A stretch of 64,000 bases of DNA from a virus: the IMG/VR virus record IMGVR_UViG_3300025132_000026, positions 1 to 64,000 of that record; one strand, 5' to 3'. How positions within the stretch are numbered: the stretch's first letter is position 1; each line of letters begins with the position of its first letter. The position numbers and the translations under genes were made by a program. The notes beneath the pieces were generated by a model, which had not been told where the DNA came from, did no database searches, and saw only the letters and a list, made by a program, of their open reading frames with translations. This document shows, one piece after another, positions 5,143 to 38,828 of the stretch.

Positions 5143-6726
5143 TTAATCAGTCTCCGTCTGAATAATACCAAAATTGGTAGTAATTAGCGTGGCGGCGGTG
5201 CTGGCACCGTTCTGTAGTGCTGTTCTGGATACCTTTACGGGGTCTATAATACCACATTTAAACAAATCTGTCAACTCAGATCTGCGGAAATCCCAGCCGT
5301 TTCCATCTTTTGAATTCAAAACCTTTTGTACAATAATGTCAGGGGAATCTCCAGAATTCAAAGCCATCTGCCTGATTGGCTCTCGGCATGCGTTCTGCAC
5401 TACTACGGCTCCCACCCCTTGGTCTGTGTGGCCATCCTCTGTGGAAATAATTATTCTTTCTGACGCTCTGAGTAATGCCACTCCACCTCCGGGTACAATA
5501 CCCTCTGCTTGGGCCGCCTTAACAGCCTCAAGTGCATCCTCAATGCGGTGTTTCTTTTCAATCATCTCAACTTCTGTTGTTCCACCGACCCTAATTACAG
5601 CTACTGCAGATCCTAGTCTGACAATCCTGCTCTGGATTCGACTACACTCCTGCAAGTCGTCTGTTTGTGTTATCGAATCTTTTAGGTCCTCAATTTTTTG
5701 TTCTATCAAATCATAGTCTGCGGCGCCTCCAACAATCGTTGTCAGTCTTCTGTCAGATTCTATAAAGTTTGCAGTACCAAAATCCACCAACTCTATGTTT
5801 TGTAGTTTCCTTCCGCTTTCTCTTGTTATGAATGTTGCTCCAGTTGATAGCGCCATATCGTTCAAGATATTTCTGCGGTCTTCTCCATATAAAGGTGCTT
5901 TTATTGCGGCGACCTTTAGTGAGCCTCGCATAGAATTCATAATCAGAGCAGCCAGCGCTTGGCCCTCGATATCCTCTGCGATTATCACCAGTGGTCTGTT
6001 CTCTCTCGCAATCAACTCCAAGGCTGGCAAGATTTGTTCAACTGTTGCTATCTTGTGATCAGTGATAAGAAACAGTGGCTCTTCATGATGCATCACTCCC
6101 CTTCTTTCGTCAGTTATGAAGGCTGATGCACAGTATGTACCGTTAAACCTAAACCCTTCGGTTATATCCAGTATAGTGTCCACCGAGCGTGACTCTTCAA
6201 TTGTGATTGTCCCGTCTTGACCTACTCTATCGACAGCCATCGAAATAAGCTTCCCGATAGATTTATCATTATTAGCCGAAATTGTTGCGATATGTTCAAT
6301 ATCTTCTACACTCGTAACCGGACGCGCAAGATCTTTCAGGTTTTTGACCACCTCTCTCACAGCCAGATCGATTCCTCTTTGCAACTCTGTTGGAGATATG
6401 CCAGATGTTATATACCTCTGCGATTCTCTGAGGATTGCTCTTGCGAGAACTGTTGCGGTGGTTGTACCATCGCCGGCTTCGTTGTTAGTCTCAATTGCAG
6501 CTTGCTTGATTACTTGTGCTGCAGCATTCTCAAAAGGATCTTCGCATTTTACAAATGCTGCGACTGTAACGCCGTCCTTTGTGATAAATGGGTTCTTGCC
6601 TTTTTCTTGTAGAAGGACATTTCGACCTCTTGGCCCAAGAGTTGAAGCCACGTTATCGGCAAGCTTGTTGGCGCCGGCCATTATCTTTTGTTGTAGTGTT
6701 TGATTGTCGTCATATGCGCGACTCAT
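5143..6726 (-). CDS. groEL: GroEL-type chaperonin (Hsp60)
   Basis: The 527-residue product is a complete group I chaperonin. The ATP-site motifs are all present: TLGPRGRNV (residues 29-37), TKDGVTV (49-55), AGDGTTTATVLA (84-95) and a later VPGGGVALLRA. The C-terminal Gly-Met tail of E. coli GroEL is missing. GroEL forms a double ring that folds client proteins with a GroES lid; phage GroELs are thought to fold phage proteins such as capsid or tail components. A perfect-consensus sigma-70 promoter sits just upstream, so it is probably expressed early with host polymerase. A GroES-like partner is encoded 20 kb away at 26917-27189. Confidence 0.96.
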   Translation of the reverse strand: MSRAYDDNQTLQQKIMAGANKLADNVASTLGPRGRNVLLQEKGKNPFITKDGVTVAAFVKCEDPFENAAAQVIKQAAIETNNEAGDGTTTATVLARAILRESQRYITSGISPTELQRGIDLAVREVVKNLKDLARPVTSVEDIEHIATISANNDKSIGKLISMAVDRVGQDGTITIEESRSVDTILDITEGFRFNGTYCASAFITDERRGVMHHEEPLFLITDHKIATVEQILPALELIARENRPLVIIAEDIEGQALAALIMNSMRGSLKVAAIKAPLYGEDRRNILNDMALSTGATFITRESGRKLQNIELVDFGTANFIESDRRLTTIVGGAADYDLIEQKIEDLKDSITQTDDLQECSRIQSRIVRLGSAVAVIRVGGTTEVEMIEKKHRIEDALEAVKAAQAEGIVPGGGVALLRASERIIISTEDGHTDQGVGAVVVQNACREPIRQMALNSGDSPDIIVQKVLNSKDGNGWDFRRSELTDLFKCGIIDPVKVSRTALQNGASTAATLITTNFGIIQTETD

Positions 6727-8121: not shown

Positions 8122-8778
8122 TCAGATAATTATATCAGCTATACCTAATTTTACAGCTTCTTCTGCAGATAAATAGACATTAACTTTGCGTTCTAACATC
8201 TTTTTAAGCTGACTTTGTGTCATTTTTGTTTCGTTCAACAATGCATCTGTATACATCTTCTGCAATTGCTCGACTGCTTCCATTTCATTTATTAAATTGT
8301 GCAAAGAACCATGATTACCAGCAATGACCGAATGGAGCATAACGCGACAGTTTTTACCTATCTTTCGTTTGCCTTTCGTGCCTGCCGCTAAAAGGAGAAC
8401 GCCGGCAGACATAACTTTGCCAAGTCCAATCGTGTGTATCTCTGTTTGTGTTTCAATACTCTTCATGACGTCATACAGCGCGAACATATCATCTGCATTG
8501 CCGCCGTACGTCGAGAGATAAAACTCAACAGGCAAGCGCTTATCTTCAGGTACTCCGTTGTTGGATTTATCTAAAAACAACAATGCGTGAACTAGTTCTG
8601 CAATTTTTTCCTCATGCACGTCTGAAAAAAGGCCTATTACTCTTAGTTCTTCCTGTGGAGGCCCAAGAAGCTCTTCTCCGATCTCTCCTGGATCAATTAA
8701 AATTATTCTTTTGCCATCTTCATTTGCGGGGCTCTCGCCAACAATTGAATTAATTTTTTGTTTTATTTTGTCTATCAC
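8122..8778 (-). CDS. ClpP-like protease 1, catalytic Asp replaced
   Basis: The 218-residue protein has the ClpP/crotonase serine-protease fold. It shows LSTYGGNADDMFALYD (the SPGG region), KVMSAG with nucleophile S124, and VMLHSV with H149. The third triad residue should precede the LSAEEAVKLGIAD helix, but alignment by eye with ERDRFLSAPEA of E. coli ClpP puts N200 there. Several serine proteases with Asn or Lys in that place keep some activity, so inactivity is not certain. ClpP degrades unfolded proteins with a Clp ATPase; phage ClpP-like enzymes also act as prohead proteases. GTG start with GGAGGACAGG upstream, overlapping the preceding gene. Confidence 0.85.
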   Translation of the reverse strand: MIDKIKQKINSIVGESPANEDGKRIILIDPGEIGEELLGPPQEELRVIGLFSDVHEEKIAELVHALLFLDKSNNGVPEDKRLPVEFYLSTYGGNADDMFALYDVMKSIETQTEIHTIGLGKVMSAGVLLLAAGTKGKRKIGKNCRVMLHSVIAGNHGSLHNLINEMEAVEQLQKMYTDALLNETKMTQSQLKKMLERKVNVYLSAEEAVKLGIADIII

Positions 8779-10547: not shown

Positions 10548-11573
10548 TTACCATTCCCGGGCCAAAATGTGTGTGCGACTCTCAGTGATACCAGAAGATG
10601 TTTGCTTTACAAATTCTGCCCTAGATTGTAGTTCTGCTATGGTTCGCGCCCCAGAATAAGATAAACCAGATCGGATTCCTTTTTCTAGATCCTCAAGTAT
10701 TTCTTTTGCTGGGCCGCGATATGGTACAGTTGTAGACACGCCTTCAAAGGAAGAATATTTACCTCTCCAATCTACCTGAGCCTCTTTGCTAGCCATACCT
10801 CTATAAATTTTCCATTTATGACCATCCTTGTCTTGCAATATTTTACCAGGAGTCTCATCTGTACCTGATAACAAGGAGCCAACCATAACAGCATCAGCAC
10901 CCGCAGCAAGAGCTTTGACCATATCTCCAGAAGTTTTTATACCTCCATCAGCAATTATTTTTACATCCCTATCGGTTTTTGCACATTCAAAAATTGTCTG
11001 TAGGCCCGGTAAGCCATGGCCGGTCTGCACTCTCGTTGAGCAAATCGAGCCGCCTCCAATATTGCAGCGTACACTATCGGCACCCCAATCTGATAGATCG
11101 TTAATGCCATCTAGAGTTGCGACATTGCCGGCCATAATGTGAAGCTCGTCACCAAGGGCGCGGCGCAAAGTTTCAAGTGCCTCCTTCATCAAAATATGAT
11201 GACCGTGAGCAACATCGATACATATAAAACTAGCTCCGATAGCACGCATTACAGACGCTCTATTTAAGAAATCTCCACTGATTCCGACTGCTGCTCCTAC
11301 AGTACCACCCTCTTCTAATACTCTTGAGACAAGCCTTGTTTGCTCTTCAATGGTGTTATACCTGTGTATAACAGAACATCCACCGACAGAAGCTAAACTA
11401 ATTGCCATATCTGCTTCTGAGATAGTATCCATTGGGGATGAAATAATCGGCAAAGCTAGCTTGAGACCGTTGCCAAGATCTGCGCTTGGATCAATTTCTG
11501 ACCGAGAACGAATATTCGAATATTGCGGCCTCAGCAGTATGTCATCATATGACAGAGAATCAGCTATCTTCAT
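10548..11573 (-). CDS. GMP reductase / IMP dehydrogenase family enzyme
   Basis: The 341-residue TIM barrel has the family signature GGGSICSTR (catalytic C178), the FMN/phosphate motif IIADGGIKTSGD, and GADAVMVGSLL. It lacks the CBS domains that most IMPDHs carry, giving GuaC-like length. In the flap, IMPDHs have EG-x2-GRV-x-YKG with a catalytic Arg; here it reads EGVSTTVPYRG, without that Arg and closer to GMP reductase. YRGMASKEA also resembles GMPR. The C-terminal SSGITESRTH looks IMPDH-like, so the call is mixed. GMP reductase converts GMP to IMP with NADPH; IMPDH makes XMP. Either would shift the purine pool. It overlaps the upstream gene by 14 bases. Confidence 0.85.
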   Translation of the reverse strand: MKIADSLSYDDILLRPQYSNIRSRSEIDPSADLGNGLKLALPIISSPMDTISEADMAISLASVGGCSVIHRYNTIEEQTRLVSRVLEEGGTVGAAVGISGDFLNRASVMRAIGASFICIDVAHGHHILMKEALETLRRALGDELHIMAGNVATLDGINDLSDWGADSVRCNIGGGSICSTRVQTGHGLPGLQTIFECAKTDRDVKIIADGGIKTSGDMVKALAAGADAVMVGSLLSGTDETPGKILQDKDGHKWKIYRGMASKEAQVDWRGKYSSFEGVSTTVPYRGPAKEILEDLEKGIRSGLSYSGARTIAELQSRAEFVKQTSSGITESRTHILAREW

Positions 11574-18482: not shown

Positions 18483-21400
18483 TTATCCTAGTTGTCTGAA
18501 AGTTTTTCCTATTGCATAGGTGCTAAAGCCCCAGTTTGGATCGTACTTGAGGTTTGCCATATAAGGCCGGTTTAGGTGAATACGATCTTTTTCTGGCTTG
18601 ACACCCCAGCATCGAATCTTGGTAAGCTCATTGTTCGAATCAATAACCTCGACAATCCAATAGAGTTTCCCATTCTTGGTTTTTTTGGGGATGATCTTTC
18701 GAGGAATAAACCAGCACAACTGTAGTTCTGGTTCGAACTCAGAAATTGGTGGTACAAACTTTTCTTGTAGTTTTTCGATTGTTTCTGGGCTAATCACCAA
18801 GTTCATCGGAAACATTCCTGTCAAATCTGATTTAAATTGAATAATCTCTTCTTCTGTGAAGTCACCCTCTGGGCGGTACAATTCTAGGTTTTCCCCGAAC
18901 TTCTTAAGGCTCTTCGGCCTTTCGACGATACAGGCCGACCAAAAATGCTTTCGTCCAGTAAATCGATCATCAACAATGTTGTCTAAAGCTCCCCCTCTAC
19001 AGAGGGCGTCGAGAGCTTTCTTGTTGAGTTTACTATAAGACACCCCCTCCCGGAACAGGAGGTCTTCGGCATTTATAAAAGGCCTGTTCTCAAGTAATTG
19101 CTCGATAGCAGCCATTCCTAAGCCCTTGATGGAGGTAAGCGGCTGGATGAGAGTCTTGCCGTCGTCACTAATCTCCCACACAACTCCAGATTTATTCACA
19201 TCTAGTGGCTCAATATCGAAACCAAATTTCTTTGCGATGTTAATAGCCTTCTCTTTTCGACTCTCTGGTTCCTTATCTAGAAACGCAGCCATCCACTCTG
19301 CTGGGTAGTAGTTCCATAGCCAGGCGCACTGGAACGAAATGATCGAGTAGCTTACAGCGTGAGACTTGTTGAAGCCATATCCCGAGAAGTATTCAAACTT
19401 GTCCCAGAGTGCCTGTGCTTCGTCTCTATTGATGCCGTTCTCGCCACAGCCTGTGATAAACTTATCATGTAGTTCACCCTTAACTGAGCCCTTGCCAGTG
19501 CCCTTCTTGGTAAGCACCTTACGAAGCATGTTGCCTTCGTCAAGGGTTAGACCACCGAGCTTGTGGGCCAACAATGCAATCTGTTCTTGAAAGATTAGAA
19601 AGCCAAATGTTTCTTGTGTAATATCATGCGCATCATCGTTCAAATACTTGATGTAGTGTGGGTTCTCCTTGGCCTCCACATACTCATCGTGGACGTTTGC
19701 AGCGAGCGGGCCCGGGCGATAGATAGAGGTAATAGCAGACACATCAATAATATTCGTTGGCTTTGCTCTCACACAGAATTGCTGTGCTCCCTGCTCTGTA
19801 AACTGGAAGACCCCAGCCCACTTGCCCGTGTGAAAGACGCTTTCGTACACCTCCTGATCGTTTAGATCTATAACATCTGGGTGCAGGTTCTTCTCGTAGT
19901 ATTCTCGGATCTGTGCGAACGTAGGTTCTTCGACACCGTGATGGCGCTTCAGAATATGGTAGATCGCGCCCTCCATCATCTTGAGTGTGGAGAGCCCAAG
20001 CAAATCGAACTTGATGAACCCCATTGGTTCAAGGTGCCGGACGTTCTGGCCTTCGGCCCACGGAGCCTGACGGACGCCGCCTGAATTAATCAAGGGCATA
20101 CTCTTGTCTAGATTCTCTGCGATAACCACACCGCCGGCGTGTCGCGAACAAGAGCGAACCTGACCAACAAGCCCCTCGACGTGAGTTTTCACTGTTGGGT
20201 ATTTATTGAGGTAGGCGGCCAACGTTGGAGAAAACTCCATAACCTCTTCCCAGGTCGGGGCGTAAACGCCGGCCTTGATGCCGTGCTTACGCTTTGCCTC
20301 GGGCGTTGCCTCTCGAATCATGATAGAAGTGACCGTGTTTACTTCCGTGAAGGGAATATCGTATAGTTTAGAGATATCTTTGATTAGACTTTTAAGCTGT
20401 AGTGTGTTCCAATTAGAAATTGGAGCAACACAGTCCTCACCCCACATCTCGACAAGCTTTTCCTTTAGCGCCATTGAGTCAGACACATCATAATCGATAT
20501 CAGGGTAGTCTTTTGCATCTGAACGCAAGAAGCGAGAGAACAGAAGTCCGTGCTTGATTGGGTCGACCTGGGTAATGTTTAACGCATATGCAACCAAAGA
20601 GCCAGCAGCGGATCCGCGGCCGGGGCCCGTCAACATCATACCCGTTGCCACATCGACGATAGATTTCATTGTCAGAAAGTATTTCGAGAAGCCGCGATCA
20701 TCGATGACATTTAATTCCTCCTGCAGGCGCTGGGTATATACCTTGTTGGTATGCAAGCCCTTGTCCTTGAGTCCTTCAAGTGCGAAGTTCACTAGCGCCT
20801 GTGTGGCCGTAAAACCGGCCGGTACGACGAATTCGGGGAGGCGTACTGTATTGTCGGGCAGGAAAGACTCGATGCGCTCGAAAGCGATCCTGTGAGACTC
20901 CTCAATACTTTTCAAGACTACATCATCATCATACTCAAACCCCGTGGATTGCGAGTACTCCTTGTAGCTTTCCCAGATCTGGTCACCATTTTTTGGATAC
21001 AGCTCATATCCAATTTCTTCAACTCCTTCCGGCAGTTGAGATTCCTCCTCGGCCCAGGAGGGTCGACCCTTACCAAGCCAACCAAGGCGCTTGTAAAGTT
21101 CACGGTCCTTCCAAGCGTCAGGGTTGGGGTAATGGCTGTCGGCTGTCGTGACCAGTCCAACGCCAAACTCTTTAGCAACTTGAATTACGTATTGGTTAAG
21201 TTCATGCTGCTCTTTAATGTTGTTCCATTGTATTTCGGCATACCAGCGATCACCGAAAATGTCGACCATACGACGTGTGGATTCGCGCATCGCATCCAGT
21301 ACTGCTTCATCCCCATCTTCTCGGTTCTCCCAATAGTTTCCGGCGTACACCCCACCAAGACAAGCAGAAGAAGCAATGATGCCTTCGTTGTACTTCTTAA

Positions 21401-21914
21401 GTAGTGCATAGTCGATACGTGGATAGCGATAGAAATTCTCCGGCTGATATGACTCTGATACCAACTTAAATAGGTTGTTCAGCCCAGTTTGGTTCTGAGC
21501 CAGTAAAACAAGGTGGCGCCGGCGCTTGAGGATACTCTGGACCTTCTTACTGTCTCCCTCATCCTCAACGGTGGCGCCAGATTGGGCATCCTTCTTGATG
21601 GCCCGGGCCTTTTTCTTGTCTTCCATCGCCTGATTGTAGGCCTCTCGCCATTCTGCGATTGAAGGAGTGAAGTACGCCTCACATCCAAAGATGGGCTTAA
21701 AATCCTTACCGGCCTCTTGCATCTTCTTAGCGTGCAGCACTTGGTATGCTAGGCCGTTCATATTGCCATGATCTGTTAGTGCTAGCGCATCACACCCATT
21801 CTCATATGCAAAATCCATATGATCTTGGGGATACCCAATCGCATCAAAAATAGAACCTGCTACGCTATGTGCGTGCAAGCCAACAAACTTAATATCAGAC
21901 TCTTTTCGAATCAC
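18483..21914 (-). CDS. dnaE: DNA polymerase III alpha subunit (DnaE type)
   Basis: The 1143-residue protein is a C-family replicative polymerase. The PHP domain opens it (KFVGLHAHSVAGSIFDAIGY, then LALTDHGNMNGL). The palm follows with GPGRGSAAGSLVAY and YPDIDYDVSD, the metal-binding Asp pair. A fingers/HhH region contains FIKFDLLGLSTLKMMEGA and GYGFNKSHAVSYS, and a C-terminal OB-like domain includes CWFIPRK. Length is close to bacterial DnaE (1160). C-family polymerases are uncommon in phages; most T4-like viruses use family B. No clamp or clamp loader is in this window. GTG start overlaps the upstream stop (GTGA) with AAGGAGG before it. Confidence 0.95.
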   Translation of the reverse strand: MIRKESDIKFVGLHAHSVAGSIFDAIGYPQDHMDFAYENGCDALALTDHGNMNGLAYQVLHAKKMQEAGKDFKPIFGCEAYFTPSIAEWREAYNQAMEDKKKARAIKKDAQSGATVEDEGDSKKVQSILKRRRHLVLLAQNQTGLNNLFKLVSESYQPENFYRYPRIDYALLKKYNEGIIASSACLGGVYAGNYWENREDGDEAVLDAMRESTRRMVDIFGDRWYAEIQWNNIKEQHELNQYVIQVAKEFGVGLVTTADSHYPNPDAWKDRELYKRLGWLGKGRPSWAEEESQLPEGVEEIGYELYPKNGDQIWESYKEYSQSTGFEYDDDVVLKSIEESHRIAFERIESFLPDNTVRLPEFVVPAGFTATQALVNFALEGLKDKGLHTNKVYTQRLQEELNVIDDRGFSKYFLTMKSIVDVATGMMLTGPGRGSAAGSLVAYALNITQVDPIKHGLLFSRFLRSDAKDYPDIDYDVSDSMALKEKLVEMWGEDCVAPISNWNTLQLKSLIKDISKLYDIPFTEVNTVTSIMIREATPEAKRKHGIKAGVYAPTWEEVMEFSPTLAAYLNKYPTVKTHVEGLVGQVRSCSRHAGGVVIAENLDKSMPLINSGGVRQAPWAEGQNVRHLEPMGFIKFDLLGLSTLKMMEGAIYHILKRHHGVEEPTFAQIREYYEKNLHPDVIDLNDQEVYESVFHTGKWAGVFQFTEQGAQQFCVRAKPTNIIDVSAITSIYRPGPLAANVHDEYVEAKENPHYIKYLNDDAHDITQETFGFLIFQEQIALLAHKLGGLTLDEGNMLRKVLTKKGTGKGSVKGELHDKFITGCGENGINRDEAQALWDKFEYFSGYGFNKSHAVSYSIISFQCAWLWNYYPAEWMAAFLDKEPESRKEKAINIAKKFGFDIEPLDVNKSGVVWEISDDGKTLIQPLTSIKGLGMAAIEQLLENRPFINAEDLLFREGVSYSKLNKKALDALCRGGALDNIVDDRFTGRKHFWSACIVERPKSLKKFGENLELYRPEGDFTEEEIIQFKSDLTGMFPMNLVISPETIEKLQEKFVPPISEFEPELQLCWFIPRKIIPKKTKNGKLYWIVEVIDSNNELTKIRCWGVKPEKDRIHLNRPYMANLKYDPNWGFSTYAIGKTFRQLG

Positions 21915-30819: not shown

Positions 30820-31788
30820 TTAACACTCTGAATTTATTTTATTAAGGTGAAGTTCGAGGTCCTTCCAGTTTAATTCGCCAAAACCATCATCTCTCATTTT
30901 CTTAATAATTTCTATCTTATTGAAATTGCACTCGAAGTTCTCAACAGCGTTTCTAACGAAATCTTTTGACTGTGGTGAAAGCATGGGAGAATATAATTGC
31001 ATCATTTTGTAATTATGTTCGATCGTCTCTTGACCTTCCAAGATATTATCGTGAAATTTTAGCTTTTTGTCGACATTCTCGCAATAGGTAATTACGTCAT
31101 CAATCGTGTAATCCTTCTCAGCTGCAAGAAATCCGAGGCGGCGCTGGATTGTTTTAAATCCAACTGCCTTAATTCCCGGCAGATTATCTGAAGCATCTCC
31201 CACAAGAGCCCTGGCAAGAGCCATATTTCTGGGATGGACCCCCAGCTCTTCCACAATCTTCTTCTTGTTGTAAACTAAGTCGCTAGTCGGGCGATATACC
31301 ACAGTCTCTTCGTCACATAACTGATAGAAATCCTTATCATTAGAGACGATCACCTTTTGCCATCCATCGTAGTAGGGCATTCTAGTCAAATAGGAAATAA
31401 CATCGTCCGCCTCCACCTCTGGTAGCATTACCTGCACAATTGGCATTTCATTAAAATACTCAATTGCTCTACGTTGCTGCCATACGCGGTTTTGCATCTC
31501 TTCAATTTCAGTCAGTGCCTTAACGTTCCTATTGAGTCTGATTGGTTTGCGGCCCTCTTTATAGTTTTTATCCATAGTTCTGCGCTTGCGAGAACCATCC
31601 GGGCCGTCCCACACAATTACAATCTCTTCTGGGGTTGTCATTCTAACCAACTTCTGGACAATCTTTAAAGAACCTTTGAAGCCTCCGATTGGTTCCCCGT
31701 TGGTTGATAAACTTGGGTCAACAATATATGCTCTTAGAAACATGTTAAGTGCATCAATAATCAAAACTCTCTTCATTCCTTCACTCAT
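30820..31788 (-). CDS. FEN-type 5'-3' exonuclease / RNase H
   Basis: The 322-residue protein has the flap-endonuclease layout: an early IIDALNMFLRAY (first metal Asp), VWDGPDGSRKRR, then VEADDVISYL, IVSNDKDFYQL with clustered acidic residues, and GDASDNLPGIKAVGFKTIQ, the DNA-binding helix-hairpin-helix. T4 Rnh and T7 gp6 belong here; they remove RNA primers and 5' flaps. The DnaE and mini-PolA in this window both lack such a domain, so this enzyme likely supplies it. The start overlaps the small preceding gene by eight bases. Confidence 0.9.
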   Translation of the reverse strand: MSEGMKRVLIIDALNMFLRAYIVDPSLSTNGEPIGGFKGSLKIVQKLVRMTTPEEIVIVWDGPDGSRKRRTMDKNYKEGRKPIRLNRNVKALTEIEEMQNRVWQQRRAIEYFNEMPIVQVMLPEVEADDVISYLTRMPYYDGWQKVIVSNDKDFYQLCDEETVVYRPTSDLVYNKKKIVEELGVHPRNMALARALVGDASDNLPGIKAVGFKTIQRRLGFLAAEKDYTIDDVITYCENVDKKLKFHDNILEGQETIEHNYKMMQLYSPMLSPQSKDFVRNAVENFECNFNKIEIIKKMRDDGFGELNWKDLELHLNKINSEC

Positions 31789-31948
31789 CTATTTGTTCCT
31801 CCAATTTGCTAATTTGTTCCATAACATAGGCCAATCCACGCAAATTACCATTACGTTGATAAATCATTGCCTGTTCTTGTAGATTAGATATTTGTTTTGT
31901 AATCTTGTTTTGTTTTCTTTTACTAAAGAAGTCAGTTAAAAATTTCAT
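31781..31948 (-). CDS. Small helical protein, 55 residues
   Basis: I found this frame by reading the gap between UvdE and the exonuclease. ATG at 31948 overlaps the UvdE stop and TGA at 31781 overlaps the exonuclease start. The product is a single charged helix with heptad-like leucines and isoleucines (KQISNLQEQA, MEQISKLEEQ), probably coiled coil. Function unknown; coding is supported by its exact fit between two overlapping neighbours. Confidence 0.6.
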   Translation of the reverse strand: MKFLTDFFSKRKQNKITKQISNLQEQAMIYQRNGNLRGLAYVMEQISKLEEQIDE

Positions 31949-32880
31949 CCTGCCATCCTTCCTTTACTCATCACTTGTCTGTATTCCAGGAGAGCTTGTT
32001 CTTTGTGCTTGGCCTCGATCATTACATCTAAATCATGGCCATAGTCATTGAACGGGTTGCGAATCATATCCGAGTGTGCTTGCGGTTTGATTTTCGGATT
32101 GTTATGCTCAACAGAGCGAGACTCTGCATAGTGTACAACTGGCTTGATATCGCCCCACGTAGACAGTGCAAGTTCTAGAGCTTCTTGCTCAGTCTGACCA
32201 CCGGGGTGGAGCATATGGTGATGATAGTCGAACACGATAGGAATACCGATTCGCTTGTATACGCTCTCATACAGTTCAAGTGTTGAATATAAAGACTCTT
32301 TGTCATCATTCTCAACGGTCAGGCGTGACCGTACATTTTCAGGCAAACGCTCAAAGTTGCGACAGAAGTTGTCAAGGGCGAACGGCTTATCGCCATAGGC
32401 AGCGCCAACATGAATGTTTAGCTTTGCATACGGTGTACGAGGCAAGCCAATAAGATCAAACAAATCACCGTGCACAGACAAATCAGTCTTAGTGAGCTGA
32501 AAAACGCGCTCTTTCGGTGAAGCCAATTTGTTGAATGGGCCTGGGTGCGAGGTGAGGCGCATATTGTGTTGTCTTGCAAAATTACCAGCAGACAGGGCCG
32601 CGGCGTGTATAGCGCCGTAGTTTGGCATCTCAGTCAATTCGTACTCACTAGCCCACGGAATAATGTCGGACGACAGACGATAAAAATAAATGTCGTTCTC
32701 AAGATTCCACTCAAGAATAGTTCGCAAATCACGCAAATTCTGCAGTGCTAGCTCCGAAGCATACTCGATACCGCGGTCTTGGAACGTACGCTTGATCATC
32801 GTACGATTAGTTGTGATGCGCTGCGATTTTGGCAGCGACGAGAAACCCATATTGATACAGGCATAACCATAATTACGCAT
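31945..32880 (-). CDS. uvsE: UV damage endonuclease UvdE
   Basis: The 311-residue TIM-barrel enzyme matches UvdE: YGYACINMGF at the start, NLRDLRTILEWNLENDIYFYRLSSDI, RLTSHPGPF, LNIHVGAAYGDK, LTVENDDKE and FDYHHHMLHPGG, which supply the metal-binding His, Glu and Asp residues. It nicks DNA 5' to UV photoproducts and other distortions, starting repair without UvrABC. A strong promoter precedes it. Length is usual for the family. Confidence 0.93.
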   Translation of the reverse strand: MRNYGYACINMGFSSLPKSQRITTNRTMIKRTFQDRGIEYASELALQNLRDLRTILEWNLENDIYFYRLSSDIIPWASEYELTEMPNYGAIHAAALSAGNFARQHNMRLTSHPGPFNKLASPKERVFQLTKTDLSVHGDLFDLIGLPRTPYAKLNIHVGAAYGDKPFALDNFCRNFERLPENVRSRLTVENDDKESLYSTLELYESVYKRIGIPIVFDYHHHMLHPGGQTEQEALELALSTWGDIKPVVHYAESRSVEHNNPKIKPQAHSDMIRNPFNDYGHDLDVMIEAKHKEQALLEYRQVMSKGRMAG

Positions 32881-34282: not shown

Positions 34283-34555
34283 CTACTCAGTTGTTTCAGT
34301 AGTGGTGGTGGTTGTGTCACCGGTTGTCGTAGTCGCCGTGCCGGTTGTTGTGGTAGTGGCGGTCGTTGTTTCCGCGGTTCCAGTGTTAGTGGTGGAAACT
34401 TCAACAGTTTCTGTCGCTTCAGTAGTCGTAGTAGATTCTGATACTACTTCTGGATCAACAGTACATGTACCATATGATGTTGCGATTACAAGCGCTCCGC
34501 CTGCCAAGGCAACCTTAACTTTCCAGCTAGCTAATAGTGTTTTCAACCATTCCAT
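34283..34555 (-). CDS. Membrane-anchored Thr-rich protein
   Basis: The 90-residue protein has a hydrophobic segment (residues about 13-26, VKVALAGGALVIAT) and then a tail made mostly of Thr with Glu, Ala, Val and Gly. The topology suggests an inner-membrane anchor with a periplasmic low-complexity tail. It precedes the small lipoprotein, so a spanin-like inner/outer pair was considered, but the tail lacks coiled coil. A second Thr-rich protein is encoded at 54270-54590. Confidence 0.6.
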   Translation of the reverse strand: MEWLKTLLASWKVKVALAGGALVIATSYGTCTVDPEVVSESTTTTEATETVEVSTTNTGTAETTTATTTTTGTATTTTGDTTTTTTETTE

Positions 34556-34635: not shown

Positions 34636-35400
34636 CTAGTTTGCCATTAGTTCATCAAACGCTCGGTCCACGTCGCTTTTCTTATCGTATCGAGTGGTCT
34701 CACTTGAGCGTGATTCTGCGCTTCCATTGCCAGCCAATTGCTCATCTAGGATTGCGTCAACTTGCTCTGGAGTCAACCTCTCAAAGAGAGTATTGAATTC
34801 AGGGATACCATCAAGGAGGGCGGGGATGGCCTCTGAGTCCTCCAGAAGCGGCGAAGTGTTACGACGCATCTTTAAACTTGTCTGTGGGTAAGCCCCCGGT
34901 TTGGTGGGCTTAGTGTAAGTAAGTGTAATATCGGTGCCCTCTTGCACATCTGTGACATCACCGTACTCGGGGTCAAGAATATAGCCCAAAAGAAGCTCAT
35001 AAGCTGTCTTTCCGTAACCGTATATCTTGGCTCCTTCGTCTTCTCTTCCTCTCACAACAACTGGTGAGAAGAAACGGGTTCGAACAAACAATGATTTTGC
35101 AAGTTTCTTGCTTTCTTCATCGTTTTGATCGACGCCTTCGCGCCAAAGCTGCGAGGCGAAATCACAAATTCCGCAGCGTTCTCCAAAGTTGCGCTTAGGA
35201 CAAAGAATTCCGCCCTTATGATCGCCAACATTATAGTGGAAGAACATCTCCTTCAATGGGTCACCATCATTTGTTGGTACGATACGAATATCTGTATCGC
35301 CCTCATCGGGTTTAAACCAGACCGAAGCCTGCCCGGAGTCCCGATTTTCTCCGCGTAGTGTAGCGAGCTTTCGTCGCATAAGTTCCATGTCAATTGCCAT
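34636..35400 (-). CDS. gp32-like single-stranded DNA-binding protein
   Basis: The 254-residue protein resembles T4 gp32. It has a basic N-terminal segment (LMRRKLATLR), a core with zinc ligands of the gp32 type (H55, C67, C76, C79; spacing 11-8-2 versus 12-9-2 in T4), and an acidic C-terminus ending KSDVDRAFDELMAN. It coats ssDNA and organises replication and recombination proteins. A promoter and a leader hairpin precede it. Confidence 0.88.
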   Translation of the reverse strand: MAIDMELMRRKLATLRGENRDSGQASVWFKPDEGDTDIRIVPTNDGDPLKEMFFHYNVGDHKGGILCPKRNFGERCGICDFASQLWREGVDQNDEESKKLAKSLFVRTRFFSPVVVRGREDEGAKIYGYGKTAYELLLGYILDPEYGDVTDVQEGTDITLTYTKPTKPGAYPQTSLKMRRNTSPLLEDSEAIPALLDGIPEFNTLFERLTPEQVDAILDEQLAGNGSAESRSSETTRYDKKSDVDRAFDELMAN

Positions 35401-35451: not shown

Positions 35452-35480
35452 AATGTATCACCCTTGATCTATCTTGTCAA
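35452..35480 (-). promoter_or_regulatory. Sigma-70 promoter of gp32-recA operon
   Basis: TTGACA (35480-35475), 17-base spacer, TACATT (35457-35452). The -35 lies inside the end of the FtsZ-like gene. Confidence 0.75.
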
Positions 35481-36318
35481 GGTTATTTTGTTGTATCGCG
35501 TTTGTGTGGGCCACGACATACCCAAAGTCTTGATGTGGTGTTTCGTATATTGCATAAGATATCTTACGAAATGCATTCGTATTCTTCTTTTTTAGCATGT
35601 CTACTAAACGCCTGTGTAATGTGCCTTCCTCTTTTAATCTTTCTTCATTTATACACATATAATAACATAACTCTCGATCGATGTCAAGCTCGAAAAACCA
35701 ATTTTCTTCAAGATTCTTTAAGTTGAGTGCGCCGAGAGTTCTGATTCTGCTTACTTCCGAAGGCTTTGAAACTTGGCCAATTTCAGGCTCGGTATGAGTA
35801 AAATAATTTAAATAATGCACCGCAGAAAAGATTGCATTATTGATGGTGTCGTAATAATTTTTAATTGGCACGTTTCCTAGTGTTTTTTCAATCTCTTGGT
35901 TTGAAAATATTGTTATTGATTCAAATAGACCAGACCTGGCATATTGCTGTAGTATGCCGAACGCTGCAGCTTCCAGCATTCTTGGTAAGCCAGTTAACAA
36001 CTCTGTGTCGGGCTTGACATAGAAAATTTCAATTTTCTTTTCTTTTATTTGCTCCAATATACCAAGAGCATAATTTGAACTGTAAGATGAGCCCACTATA
36101 AAGACCTGTACATGTTCTCTTAAGTCTTCAAAAAACTTCTTAACGTCTGGAATATTTTTTTCGTATTCCTCCGGCTCTGAATGCTTCTTTAGTTTGAATT
36201 TATACTTCGACTTTCTCTCTATATTGTCGTTCATCAGGTAAACTTCATACTGCGATACCTCAGAAAACTTTTCGGCGATTGCAGAGGCGCCATTTCCAAT
36301 CCCAACTATCGATATCAT
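35458..36318 (-). CDS. FtsZ/tubulin-like protein with degenerate GTP loop
   Basis: The 286-residue protein reads like a shortened FtsZ/tubulin GTPase domain. It has an opening ISIVGIGNGASAIAEKF strand-helix, a VQVFIVGSSYSSNYALGIL segment where FtsZ has its G-GGTGTG loop before a helix, then IEIFYVKPDTEL, ITIFSNQEIEK and a helix with NNAIFSAVHYLN, matching FtsZ secondary structure in order. The glycine loop reads GSSYSSN (76-82), so ordinary GTP binding is doubtful. Phage tubulins (PhuZ) form filaments that position DNA; whether this one polymerises is unknown. Its start overlaps the mini-PolA stop (ATGA), suggesting linked function. Confidence 0.5.
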   Translation of the reverse strand: MISIVGIGNGASAIAEKFSEVSQYEVYLMNDNIERKSKYKFKLKKHSEPEEYEKNIPDVKKFFEDLREHVQVFIVGSSYSSNYALGILEQIKEKKIEIFYVKPDTELLTGLPRMLEAAAFGILQQYARSGLFESITIFSNQEIEKTLGNVPIKNYYDTINNAIFSAVHYLNYFTHTEPEIGQVSKPSEVSRIRTLGALNLKNLEENWFFELDIDRELCYYMCINEERLKEEGTLHRRLVDMLKKKNTNAFRKISYAIYETPHQDFGYVVAHTNAIQQNNLDKIDQG

Positions 36319-37499
36319 ATATTAAGCTCCTTTAAGTCTAAATAATTTTTGCCGCATCTTAAGTTTACCATATATTGCGCCAATTTGTTGCTGGAGAAAA
36401 TAGATTTTATTTCTGCTAAGATTTCTCGCTCGTCATCTGCCAGATCTATTACAATCTCATCATGGACAATATGAGATATAAAAGACTTCTTATCTTTTAA
36501 GAATTTATCAATTACGGTTGCCCGTTCGAGAACCAAATCAGAAGTTGTGCTTTGAATCAAATAATTTAAGGCCCTTCTTTGTTCTACTTTGATTTTTCTA
36601 TTGAACGGCGTTGTAATATATTCCCCATCGTACCATTTTGCTAAAGCCTTCTCTTTGCTGTATAGTTCCGTGGATATTGCATCGGATGCTGGATCGTATA
36701 ACCACGCAAAAAATCTGGTCTTGCATTCGTCGCGGGTTATTTCTTGCTCAAAGAGATTAAGAGCGTTCCAATCATGAATATCTATATCTGGTTGTTCCTC
36801 GCCGGTGAGAGACAACAGAGTTCTAACTTCTGCCCCATTATAATCAAATGAAACAAACCACTCATTATGAGGTTTGATAATTTTTCTAAACTCCTTTTTC
36901 AAAGTCAAAATCGGAAAGGAATCTGGCATTGTTGTTAAGCGGCCGGTAATAGTGCCGAATAGGTTATAATCAATGTAGGTATCATCCGACAAAAGATTGC
37001 TCATTGTTTTTCGATGTGTAGACGTTAAAAACAAATTCTTGCAGTCTGATACATTTGTTTTCAATTTTTGGGATTTTATCTTCTGTAATAGAGAGTGAAC
37101 ATTTATGAGGTGTTCGTAGTTATCAGGCTTAGGATATTTTTCGAATACATGTGCTGATATCTCGTTTTTGGTCTCGCAGTATTTTTTTAAAAAATCTTGT
37201 GGCACCATATCAAAAAAACAATGTTCCCTCAAATTTATTTTTGCCAATTCAAAAGCTTTTAAGTACGCTCTGAGTTTTCTCGTCGACGAGTCTAATTTTT
37301 CCAATAAATTTTGGGGTGATGCATCTTGCAAAGACTTACCGCCAGAATATATCCAAGCTGATTGTACTTCTTTATCCGTGTCTATCGTAGTTATTTTCCA
37401 CGTGTGCGTCAAATCATCGGGCAAGTCCTCGAAAAATAGTTTTCCATCAGCATACACACCTATACACTCGGTTTTGTCATCTAAGGTTTGAAAAAGCAA
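36315..37499 (-). CDS. Mini family-A DNA polymerase (PolA palm/fingers only)
   Basis: The 394-residue protein keeps family-A polymerase motifs in order: GTITGRLTT (183-190), motif A SFDYNGAEVR with D219, motif B R256-x3-K260-x3-F264-x3-Y268, and motif C HDE at 346-348. There is no 3'-5' exonuclease domain and little thumb, so it is far shorter than PolI (928) or T7 polymerase (704). A repair, gap-filling or primer-processing role beside the DnaE polymerase is likely. TTG start at 37499 with GGAGATACC before it. It lies directly behind virion genes and ahead of the FtsZ-like gene. Confidence 0.85.
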   Translation of the reverse strand: MLFQTLDDKTECIGVYADGKLFFEDLPDDLTHTWKITTIDTDKEVQSAWIYSGGKSLQDASPQNLLEKLDSSTRKLRAYLKAFELAKINLREHCFFDMVPQDFLKKYCETKNEISAHVFEKYPKPDNYEHLINVHSLLQKIKSQKLKTNVSDCKNLFLTSTHRKTMSNLLSDDTYIDYNLFGTITGRLTTMPDSFPILTLKKEFRKIIKPHNEWFVSFDYNGAEVRTLLSLTGEEQPDIDIHDWNALNLFEQEITRDECKTRFFAWLYDPASDAISTELYSKEKALAKWYDGEYITTPFNRKIKVEQRRALNYLIQSTTSDLVLERATVIDKFLKDKKSFISHIVHDEIVIDLADDEREILAEIKSIFSSNKLAQYMVNLRCGKNYLDLKELNI

Positions 37500-37511: not shown

Positions 37512-38828
37512 TTAAGACAGATCTATCTCTTCGTCGGGGGCAAGAATGCCGCGGCCAGCACCAGGTGAGCCAAACCGGCCAATTGAGGCGCCGTGTGACG
37601 CATTGCCGGTCGGATCCGGTCCAATTTTTTTAGTGTTTTCTTCATCCGCAAGCATTATCTTGGTATTATAATCCAATGAACCGTTATAGTCAAACGTTTT
37701 GTTAATAATTTTTTCAAAATACGACAAAGCAGCTGCTGGGCCTTGAGTATTGTATGCTTCTTTTGCCTCACTTGAAATAACAGCTATTTCACTTTCCGAT
37801 AGTTTAGCCTCCTCTTCCATCATTCTGATTTTCATATAAATCTCAAATAAAAATTGATCCGGAAATTCTTTTGCAAATTTTTGTGGACTATAGGCTACGC
37901 TTTTTCTGAATTTTGTTACTATTCTGCCGTCGCACTCTTCAAGTTCTTGATAAACATCTCTTCTAATTCTATTATACATTCTTGGAAGCTCTCTTAGGAG
38001 AAAATCAAAATATCTTGCATGAACAGAGATAAAGCGATTATTTAAAATCTGGTCTTCGGAGCGGAGGCCATACCTTTTTGAATAAACCTGCATTGGTGCT
38101 CCGGCAATGTCAGCAACTAGTCTCCAGGGCCTATGCATATCAACCATAAAACCATAATTATTGCAAGCATTTACATAGAAATTCCAATTGTTGCTATTGA
38201 TAAACTCGTTCATTTTTTCTTCGTCATTCGCATAGTCAGCAGTTGCTATCTCTATTGTAAGACCATTGGTATACACCGGGCAAAATCTAGATTTTATGAA
38301 CGCAGTCTTTGTGAACGGAAATTCTCTTACCAAAACTTCTAACATTCCCATAAAATGAGTCAAAAATTCCTGAAAATTTCTCACCATCAAATTTCTTTTT
38401 TTAAATTGTAGCTCAATGCGGCCTAAATAAGTTTTTAAATAATCTTTGTAAGCCTTGCTGTGAGAAACGTAGGCCTTGTGAACTTCTAAATTAGACAGAA
38501 AGGGATCGGTGTCATCTATTAGTCCGCTAGCGGCGCATTTTCTAAAATTAGCAGCCATAGCTTCAAAGGCGTCAACAACAAAATCTATTGCGCTCATTGG
38601 CCTTTCGGGGGCGTTAGTTGTATTAAATCTTTTGAGAATATTAGTGCTGCTAATATGTATCGGAACGTAAACCCGGCTTACTCTGCCATAAAGATATTTT
38701 TCTGCAAAATTAAAGTCGACCAGGTTTGTGTGATCCTGATTTCGATACAAATTGCCTCGATATATAACTCTTTTTTGGAAAAGATCTTTCGTTGATTCAT
38801 CATTCCCCTCTGCGAAAAGAAAAGACAT
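37512..38828 (-). CDS. Virion structural protein
   Basis: I do not recognise this 438-residue protein as a named family. It is rich in aromatic and charged residues and contains KYLYGRVSRVYVPIHIS near residue 45, similar to HLYGRADPVYIYENTT in the tail protein at 42633-43772. The last 70 residues are Gly/Pro-rich and flexible. Its place after the baseplate genes suggests a tail or baseplate component. Confidence 0.5.
   Translation of the reverse strand: MSFLFAEGNDESTKDLFQKRVIYRGNLYRNQDHTNLVDFNFAEKYLYGRVSRVYVPIHISSTNILKRFNTTNAPERPMSAIDFVVDAFEAMAANFRKCAASGLIDDTDPFLSNLEVHKAYVSHSKAYKDYLKTYLGRIELQFKKRNLMVRNFQEFLTHFMGMLEVLVREFPFTKTAFIKSRFCPVYTNGLTIEIATADYANDEEKMNEFINSNNWNFYVNACNNYGFMVDMHRPWRLVADIAGAPMQVYSKRYGLRSEDQILNNRFISVHARYFDFLLRELPRMYNRIRRDVYQELEECDGRIVTKFRKSVAYSPQKFAKEFPDQFLFEIYMKIRMMEEEAKLSESEIAVISSEAKEAYNTQGPAAALSYFEKIINKTFDYNGSLDYNTKIMLADEENTKKIGPDPTGNASHGASIGRFGSPGAGRGILAPDEEIDLS

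Follow-up and report, generated by a model that had tools for sequence, protein, structure and literature searches.

The window analyzed here is a stretch of 64,000 nucleotides that is part of a 75,115-bp virus record (G000). An open reading frame (ORF) on its minus strand (positions 35458 to 36318; ATG start), here designated PT, encodes a 286-amino-acid (aa) divergent protein of the FtsZ/tubulin superfamily. The gene directly before it (36315 to 37499, minus strand; TTG start) encodes a 394-aa mini family-A DNA polymerase of the divPolA1 type. Tightly spaced to the polymerase gene on its upstream side is u438 (37512 to 38828, minus strand), which precedes the polymerase in 228 of 247 loci and showed no recognizable relatedness to the genes at the equivalent position in Microcystis phage Mel-JY01 or Immutovirus. 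Downstream of PT is the gene for a gp32-like single-strand DNA-binding protein (34636 to 35400, minus strand; PF08804, E value of 4e-13), present within 3 kb in 221 of 223 loci. Other minus-strand genes encode a standalone 5'-3' exonuclease of the Pol I N-terminal-domain type (30820 to 31788; PF02739, E value of 4.1e-27) and a DnaE family-C polymerase with a PHP domain (18483 to 21914; PF07733, E value of 8.1e-52; PF02811, E value of 3.7e-30). DnaE is likely the replicase of the PT phage, and a match to phrog_405 (DnaE) was obtained in 14/14 large relatives, every one of which also carries PT. A Thr/Glu-rich 90-aa ORF (window positions 34283 to 34555) lies between gp32 and UvsX and is found in only part of the relatives. 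The window phage also encodes a GroEL (5143 to 6726), a ClpP-like protease (8122 to 8778), an IMP dehydrogenase/GMP reductase-like enzyme (10548 to 11573), and a UvdE UV endonuclease (31945 to 32880).

A sigma70-like promoter (TTGACA-17-TACATT, with a TG before the -10 element) was identified between PT and gp32 (35452 to 35480, minus strand), but it is only suggestive, since the total from the scan was no higher than in shuffled sequences. No copy of the late-promoter octamer TATAAATA was found upstream of PT. This octamer occurs nine times (three expected), mostly on the strand opposite to the genes, with window positions including 1973, 17454, 23854, 25977, 26958, 57269, and 63434; several copies are directly upstream of start codons, e.g., that of the major capsid gene.

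The stop codon of the polymerase gene and the start codon of PT share the tetranucleotide ATGA (36315 to 36318, minus strand), which confirms the overlap described in the initial annotation. A Shine-Dalgarno-like AAAGGAG (36327 to 36333, minus strand) is located within the 3' end of the polymerase gene, eight bases before the PT start. Among IMG/VR sequences, PT is preceded by the polymerase in each of the 279 distinct cases in which the upstream sequence is long enough, and each of the 283 distinct polymerases with sufficient downstream sequence is followed by PT, both search seeds being drawn from the same backbone. The two genes overlap in 228 of 276 distinct loci, by exactly 4 nucleotides in 171 of them. 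The neighboring junctions are looser: the u438-polymerase junction overlaps in 95/246 loci and the PT-gp32 junction in 12/270, and the median spacings are +67 for PT-gp32 and +310 for gp32-UvsX. The adjacency partly reflects lineage, because the whole backbone (gp25, gp6-like, u438, polymerase, PT, gp32, UvsX, exonuclease, DnaB, and RNR) is syntenic throughout. In 28 of the 276 loci, other DNA is found between the polymerase and PT. Among the inserts examined is a small ORF of ~91 to 102 aa (KLVRDxIPxII) at L312, L289, L369, L351, L360, L376, and L353, with at most a weak resemblance to MazG (E value of 0.048).

The polymerase matches DNA_pol_A in Pfam (E value of 6.7e-16) and contains motifs A, B, and C with the catalytic carboxylates; residues D219, R256, K260, F264, Y268, H346, and D347 are invariant in 45 sequences. 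Its AlphaFold2 model has a pLDDT of 91.4, and the Foldseek matches in the PDB are family-A polymerases. No exonuclease domain was matched by Pfam. The translational link of PT to a mini family-A polymerase was recognized correctly in the initial annotation, but the polymerase belongs to a known kind, divPolA1, and is accompanied by the separate DnaE replicase. Yutin et al. (2024) described divPolA1 as a second polymerase of Immutovirus-related phages with intact palm residues, a truncated thumb, and an inactive exonuclease (PMC11348598); neither "tubulin" nor "FtsZ" is present in the main text of that article. The assignment of the window polymerase to this type is based on synteny together with a weak similarity to the Immutovirus polymerase (~26% identity across 54% of the query) rather than on a tree. 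Both are extra family-A polymerases that have intact palm residues, occur in phages with a regular replicase, and lie upstream of gp32, recombinase, 5' exonuclease, and DnaB genes. The window phage is also tied to Immutovirus by its capsid and gp32.

Immutovirus differs in that its divPolA1 is found without PT, in whose place there are two unrelated small genes, and none of 80 Immutovirus-like loci searched had a PT match. We considered whether gp002 and gp003 of Immutovirus could be a split PT and rejected this, as gp002 has no profile similarity (P value of 0.12); gp003 was judged by eye only. In a third lineage (G047, G049, and G052), a distant divPolA1 is followed not by PT but by a homologue of HD-type metal-dependent phosphohydrolases (phrog_28876, E value of 2.9e-7), which overlaps the polymerase gene (4541 to 5116 in L601, with equivalents in L600 and L602). 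Mel-JY01 has the gp32-RecA-exonuclease-helicase order and an annotated family-B polymerase, and no polymerase is annotated directly before gp32. With PT missing from two related divPolA1 lineages (that of Immutovirus and that of G047, G049, and G052), PT is not a universal requirement of this type of polymerase, and the relatives without it place PT in one large divPolA1 lineage.

PT had no Pfam match above the cutoff and no significant PHROG match, and single-sequence searches of Pfam, PHROGs, the PDB, and 50,697 GenBank phage records were empty or below threshold, with no PT sequence match among the GenBank phages. In IMG/VR, the family comprises at least ~585 loci, and its carriers are a large, uncultured, mostly marine phage group. 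Within the literature and collections searchable here, PT is a previously undescribed family of the FtsZ/tubulin superfamily. The gene is under strong purifying selection (pS of 0.52, pN of 0.037, and pN/pS of ~0.07, with L002 as the reference); because of this selection and the recurrence in every testable distinct relative, the PT-polymerase arrangement is not due to chance. A genome collection match (L393) places PT, the polymerase, gp32, and part of UvsX within the chromosome of a WOR-3 metagenome-assembled genome. This was dropped as a host assignment, as the short phage stretch is flanked by tracts of unread bases, is surrounded by bacterial genes, and is probably a scaffold artifact or a masked region or prophage.

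The initial annotation had seen the strand-helix order of FtsZ/tubulin in PT and had proposed structure prediction as a check, with a missing tubulin GTPase fold as the contrary outcome. The AlphaFold2 model built from 51 sequences (pLDDT of 89.9, pTM of 0.89) retains that fold, and the best 50 PDB matches listed by Foldseek were all FtsZ or TubZ (E values of ~1e-12 to 5e-11; TM scores mostly 0.65 to 0.72). The best viral structural match was a phage "FtsZ" with 13% identity. The model begins with beta1-H1-beta2 and leads to H7 (residues 155 to 175), strands, H10-like helices, and two further strands, the order after H7 being S7, S8, H10, S9, and S10, as in the C-terminal domain of FtsZ. The prediction thus assigns to PT, at high confidence, the complete two-domain fold, i.e., a Rossmann-type GTPase domain, the core helix H7, and a C-terminal beta domain. 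Homology was also detected by profile-profile comparison: a profile of 289 PTs aligned with FtsZ in hhalign over 173 columns (P value of 7.3e-5), while the best of 60 column-shuffled FtsZ profiles reached 0.029. Single-sequence and HMM searches for superfamily homology were negative or below threshold; PF00091 was the Pfam family matching the most deep PTs (8/37 at an E value of <1; best, 0.0055). The PT profile (positions 4 to 93) weakly matched canonical phage tubulins, identified from their positions, in two records (E values of 7e-5 and 4e-4).

The T4 phosphate loop of PT is GSSYSSN (residues 76 to 82; 36073 to 36093, minus strand), corresponding to G105 to G111 (GGGTGTG) of Escherichia coli FtsZ. 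It retains two of the seven canonical positions, as do most of the 150 sequences of the window PT clade (>50% identity). The 139 sequences of the deep clade mostly retain three or four, and deep relatives have up to six, the best loops being GGGKITG, GGGRTSG, and GGGTISG. The signature GGGTG(S/T)G is absent from PT, GGGTISG (L256) being the nearest in the family, and G76 and S81 are mostly retained across 290 PT sequences. Judging from these alignments, the T4 loop is worn rather than replaced, and GSSYSSN is the endpoint of a graded series; the loss of the glycine loop reported in the initial annotation holds, but its replacement does not.

By contrast, the PT residues in register with the guanine contacts of FtsZ are almost invariant (~96 to 98% of 290 sequences). 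In the hhalign register, the equivalent of the FtsZ T1 loop is GIGNGAS (residues 6 to 12; 36283 to 36303, minus strand), in which G8 is present in 289/290 PTs; the deep clade has GLGxAGCxIA. N140 (35899 to 35901, minus strand; N in 283/290) aligns with N165 of E. coli FtsZ, and in the segment of H7 from Y156 to N160 (35839 to 35853, minus strand), these two residues align with F182 and N186. Position 156 is Y, F, or H in 278/290 sequences, and N160 is present in 284/290. In FtsZ, N165, F182, and N186 contact guanine; their PT counterparts were matched by profile alignment rather than by superposing a bound structure. The family signature QQYARS (residues 124 to 129; 35932 to 35949, minus strand) contains Q124 and R128, which are invariant in all 290 PTs, and S129 (288/290); H168 and N171 are present in 288/290 and 285/290, respectively. 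No FtsZ counterpart of these five residues was identified in the hhalign register, and they may form a candidate partner surface.

In FtsZ, helix H8, which follows the T7 loop, touches the adjoining subunit, whose GTPase site it completes. According to DSSP, H7 of the PT model (155 to 175) is followed by strands at 180 to 182 and 192 to 199, and no helix intervenes before S7, so that the T7 catalytic acid and H8 of the polymerizing tubulin GTPases are absent from the model. The nearest acid is E188 (E or D in 220/290). That H8/T7 is missing from the prediction argues against a role of PT as an FtsZ-like filament scaffold. Together, the conserved guanine-aligned residues, the worn T4 loop, and the lack of a predicted H8 make it probable that PT binds a guanine nucleotide without building an FtsZ-type GTPase filament. 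Models and alignments alike are more suggestive of a nucleotide-binding subunit, present as a monomer or dimer, than of a cytomotive filament.

We consider PT to be a tubulin-fold subunit or regulator of divPolA1, presumably translated from the same message as the polymerase and probably working together with it, and assign this reading a probability of roughly 0.5. Beside DnaE, divPolA1 could act as an exonuclease-free gap-filling or repair polymerase, and the gene content raises the hypothesis that it forms a split Pol I with the separate 5'-3' exonuclease. PT would bind divPolA1 and supply a clamp or thumb-like contact that the minimal polymerase lacks; alternatively, it could provide a guanine-nucleotide-responsive control that is likewise lacking. 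The most specific version, in which a tubulin that forms no filaments is a stoichiometric DNA polymerase subunit, with a bound guanine nucleotide, and serves as the control or clamp of a minimal Pol I, is put forward tentatively, as a possibility that we would not bet on. To our knowledge, no member of the tubulin superfamily has previously been found to serve as a DNA polymerase subunit.

It is doubtful that PT functions separately in the metabolism or sensing of guanine nucleotides and is linked to divPolA1 only by coexpression. The phosphohydrolase homologue in the place of PT at other divPolA1 loci and the small, weakly MazG-like protein between the polymerase and PT at some loci are consistent with such a role, but PT has no recognizable catalytic motif, and the overlap at the junction is conserved throughout this large lineage.

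It is unlikely that PT is a cytoskeletal scaffold that tethers the divPolA1 repair or replication machinery in the cell by forming its own filaments or coassembling with a canonical tubulin of the phage. TubZ and PhuZ do move or center DNA (PMC3678025, PMC4244570), and the contig of the window phage ends inside a second gene of the tubulin family, represented by its C-terminal part (G000, 74955 to 75110, outside the window). The 54 C-terminal residues encoded there are identical to those of L394, whose full copy has the loop AGGGGGTGS; tubulins of 364 to 379 aa with the same loop are encoded in G002, G005, and G006, with PF00091 above the cutoff in G002 and G005. Relatives of the second tubulin, including L394 to L396, were found at 78 loci in IMG/VR and gave no match among GenBank phages. 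PT is a different gene from the GTPase-type phage tubulin. Against a scaffold, no more than 3 of the 14 large PT-bearing records yielded a canonical tubulin, which also occurs without a detectable PT in G047; since each occurs without the other, the two are independent. The worn T4 loop and the lack of a predicted H8 argue against it as well. The jumbo-phage nucleus invoked in the initial annotation is not indicated, with no chimallin match in 15 records in a search run without a positive control.

A role of PT as a decoy toward host FtsZ, which it would poison by capping or copolymerization and so block division during infection, appears improbable. Phage inhibitors of FtsZ are known, and an FtsZ fold without a normal GTPase loop, as predicted for PT, would suit this role. 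However, near-fixed coupling to a polymerase would be unexpected, the most invariant residues (Q124 and R128) align with no FtsZ motif, and PT resembles FtsZ only remotely at the profile level. The idea that PT is a pseudogene in decay or has a Rossmann-like fold by chance, to which subthreshold Pfam matches to NAD-binding families might point, is refuted at the level of fold prediction and selection by the low pN/pS, the hundreds of intact copies, and the tubulin C-terminal domain in the model.

If PT is the partner of the polymerase, a fold familiar from filaments takes part in DNA synthesis, and confirmation of a filament protein turned polymerase helper would establish a new role for the tubulin family. 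For divPolA1, PT is a testable candidate partner, and both proteins are small. The tubulin superfamily gains a large family with a series of near-canonical to eroded GTP loops inside one gene lineage, which can help to address how GTPase function is lost in tubulins.

Among known systems, FtsZl1 and FtsZl2 resemble PT in being highly diverged families of the superfamily (PMC2875224; Makarova and Koonin, 2010). FtsZl1 has the GGGTG(S/T)G motif and a coiled coil, and FtsZl2 has all nucleotide-binding motifs and ~300 extra residues (PMC2875224); PT shares neither set of features. TubZ and PhuZ are, like PT, phage-encoded proteins with the tubulin fold, but they are polymerizing GTPases that move or center DNA, whereas PT lacks the GTPase loop and is encoded behind a polymerase gene. 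Compared with FtsZ (PF00091), PT has ~10 to 16% identity, a T4 loop eroded to GSSYSSN, no H8/T7 catalytic motif in the prediction, no C-terminal tail in its 286 aa, and no host-like context, but the two are alike in the predicted fold of both domains and in the T1 loop, the T6 asparagine, and the aromatic residue and asparagine of H7, all of which are in register.
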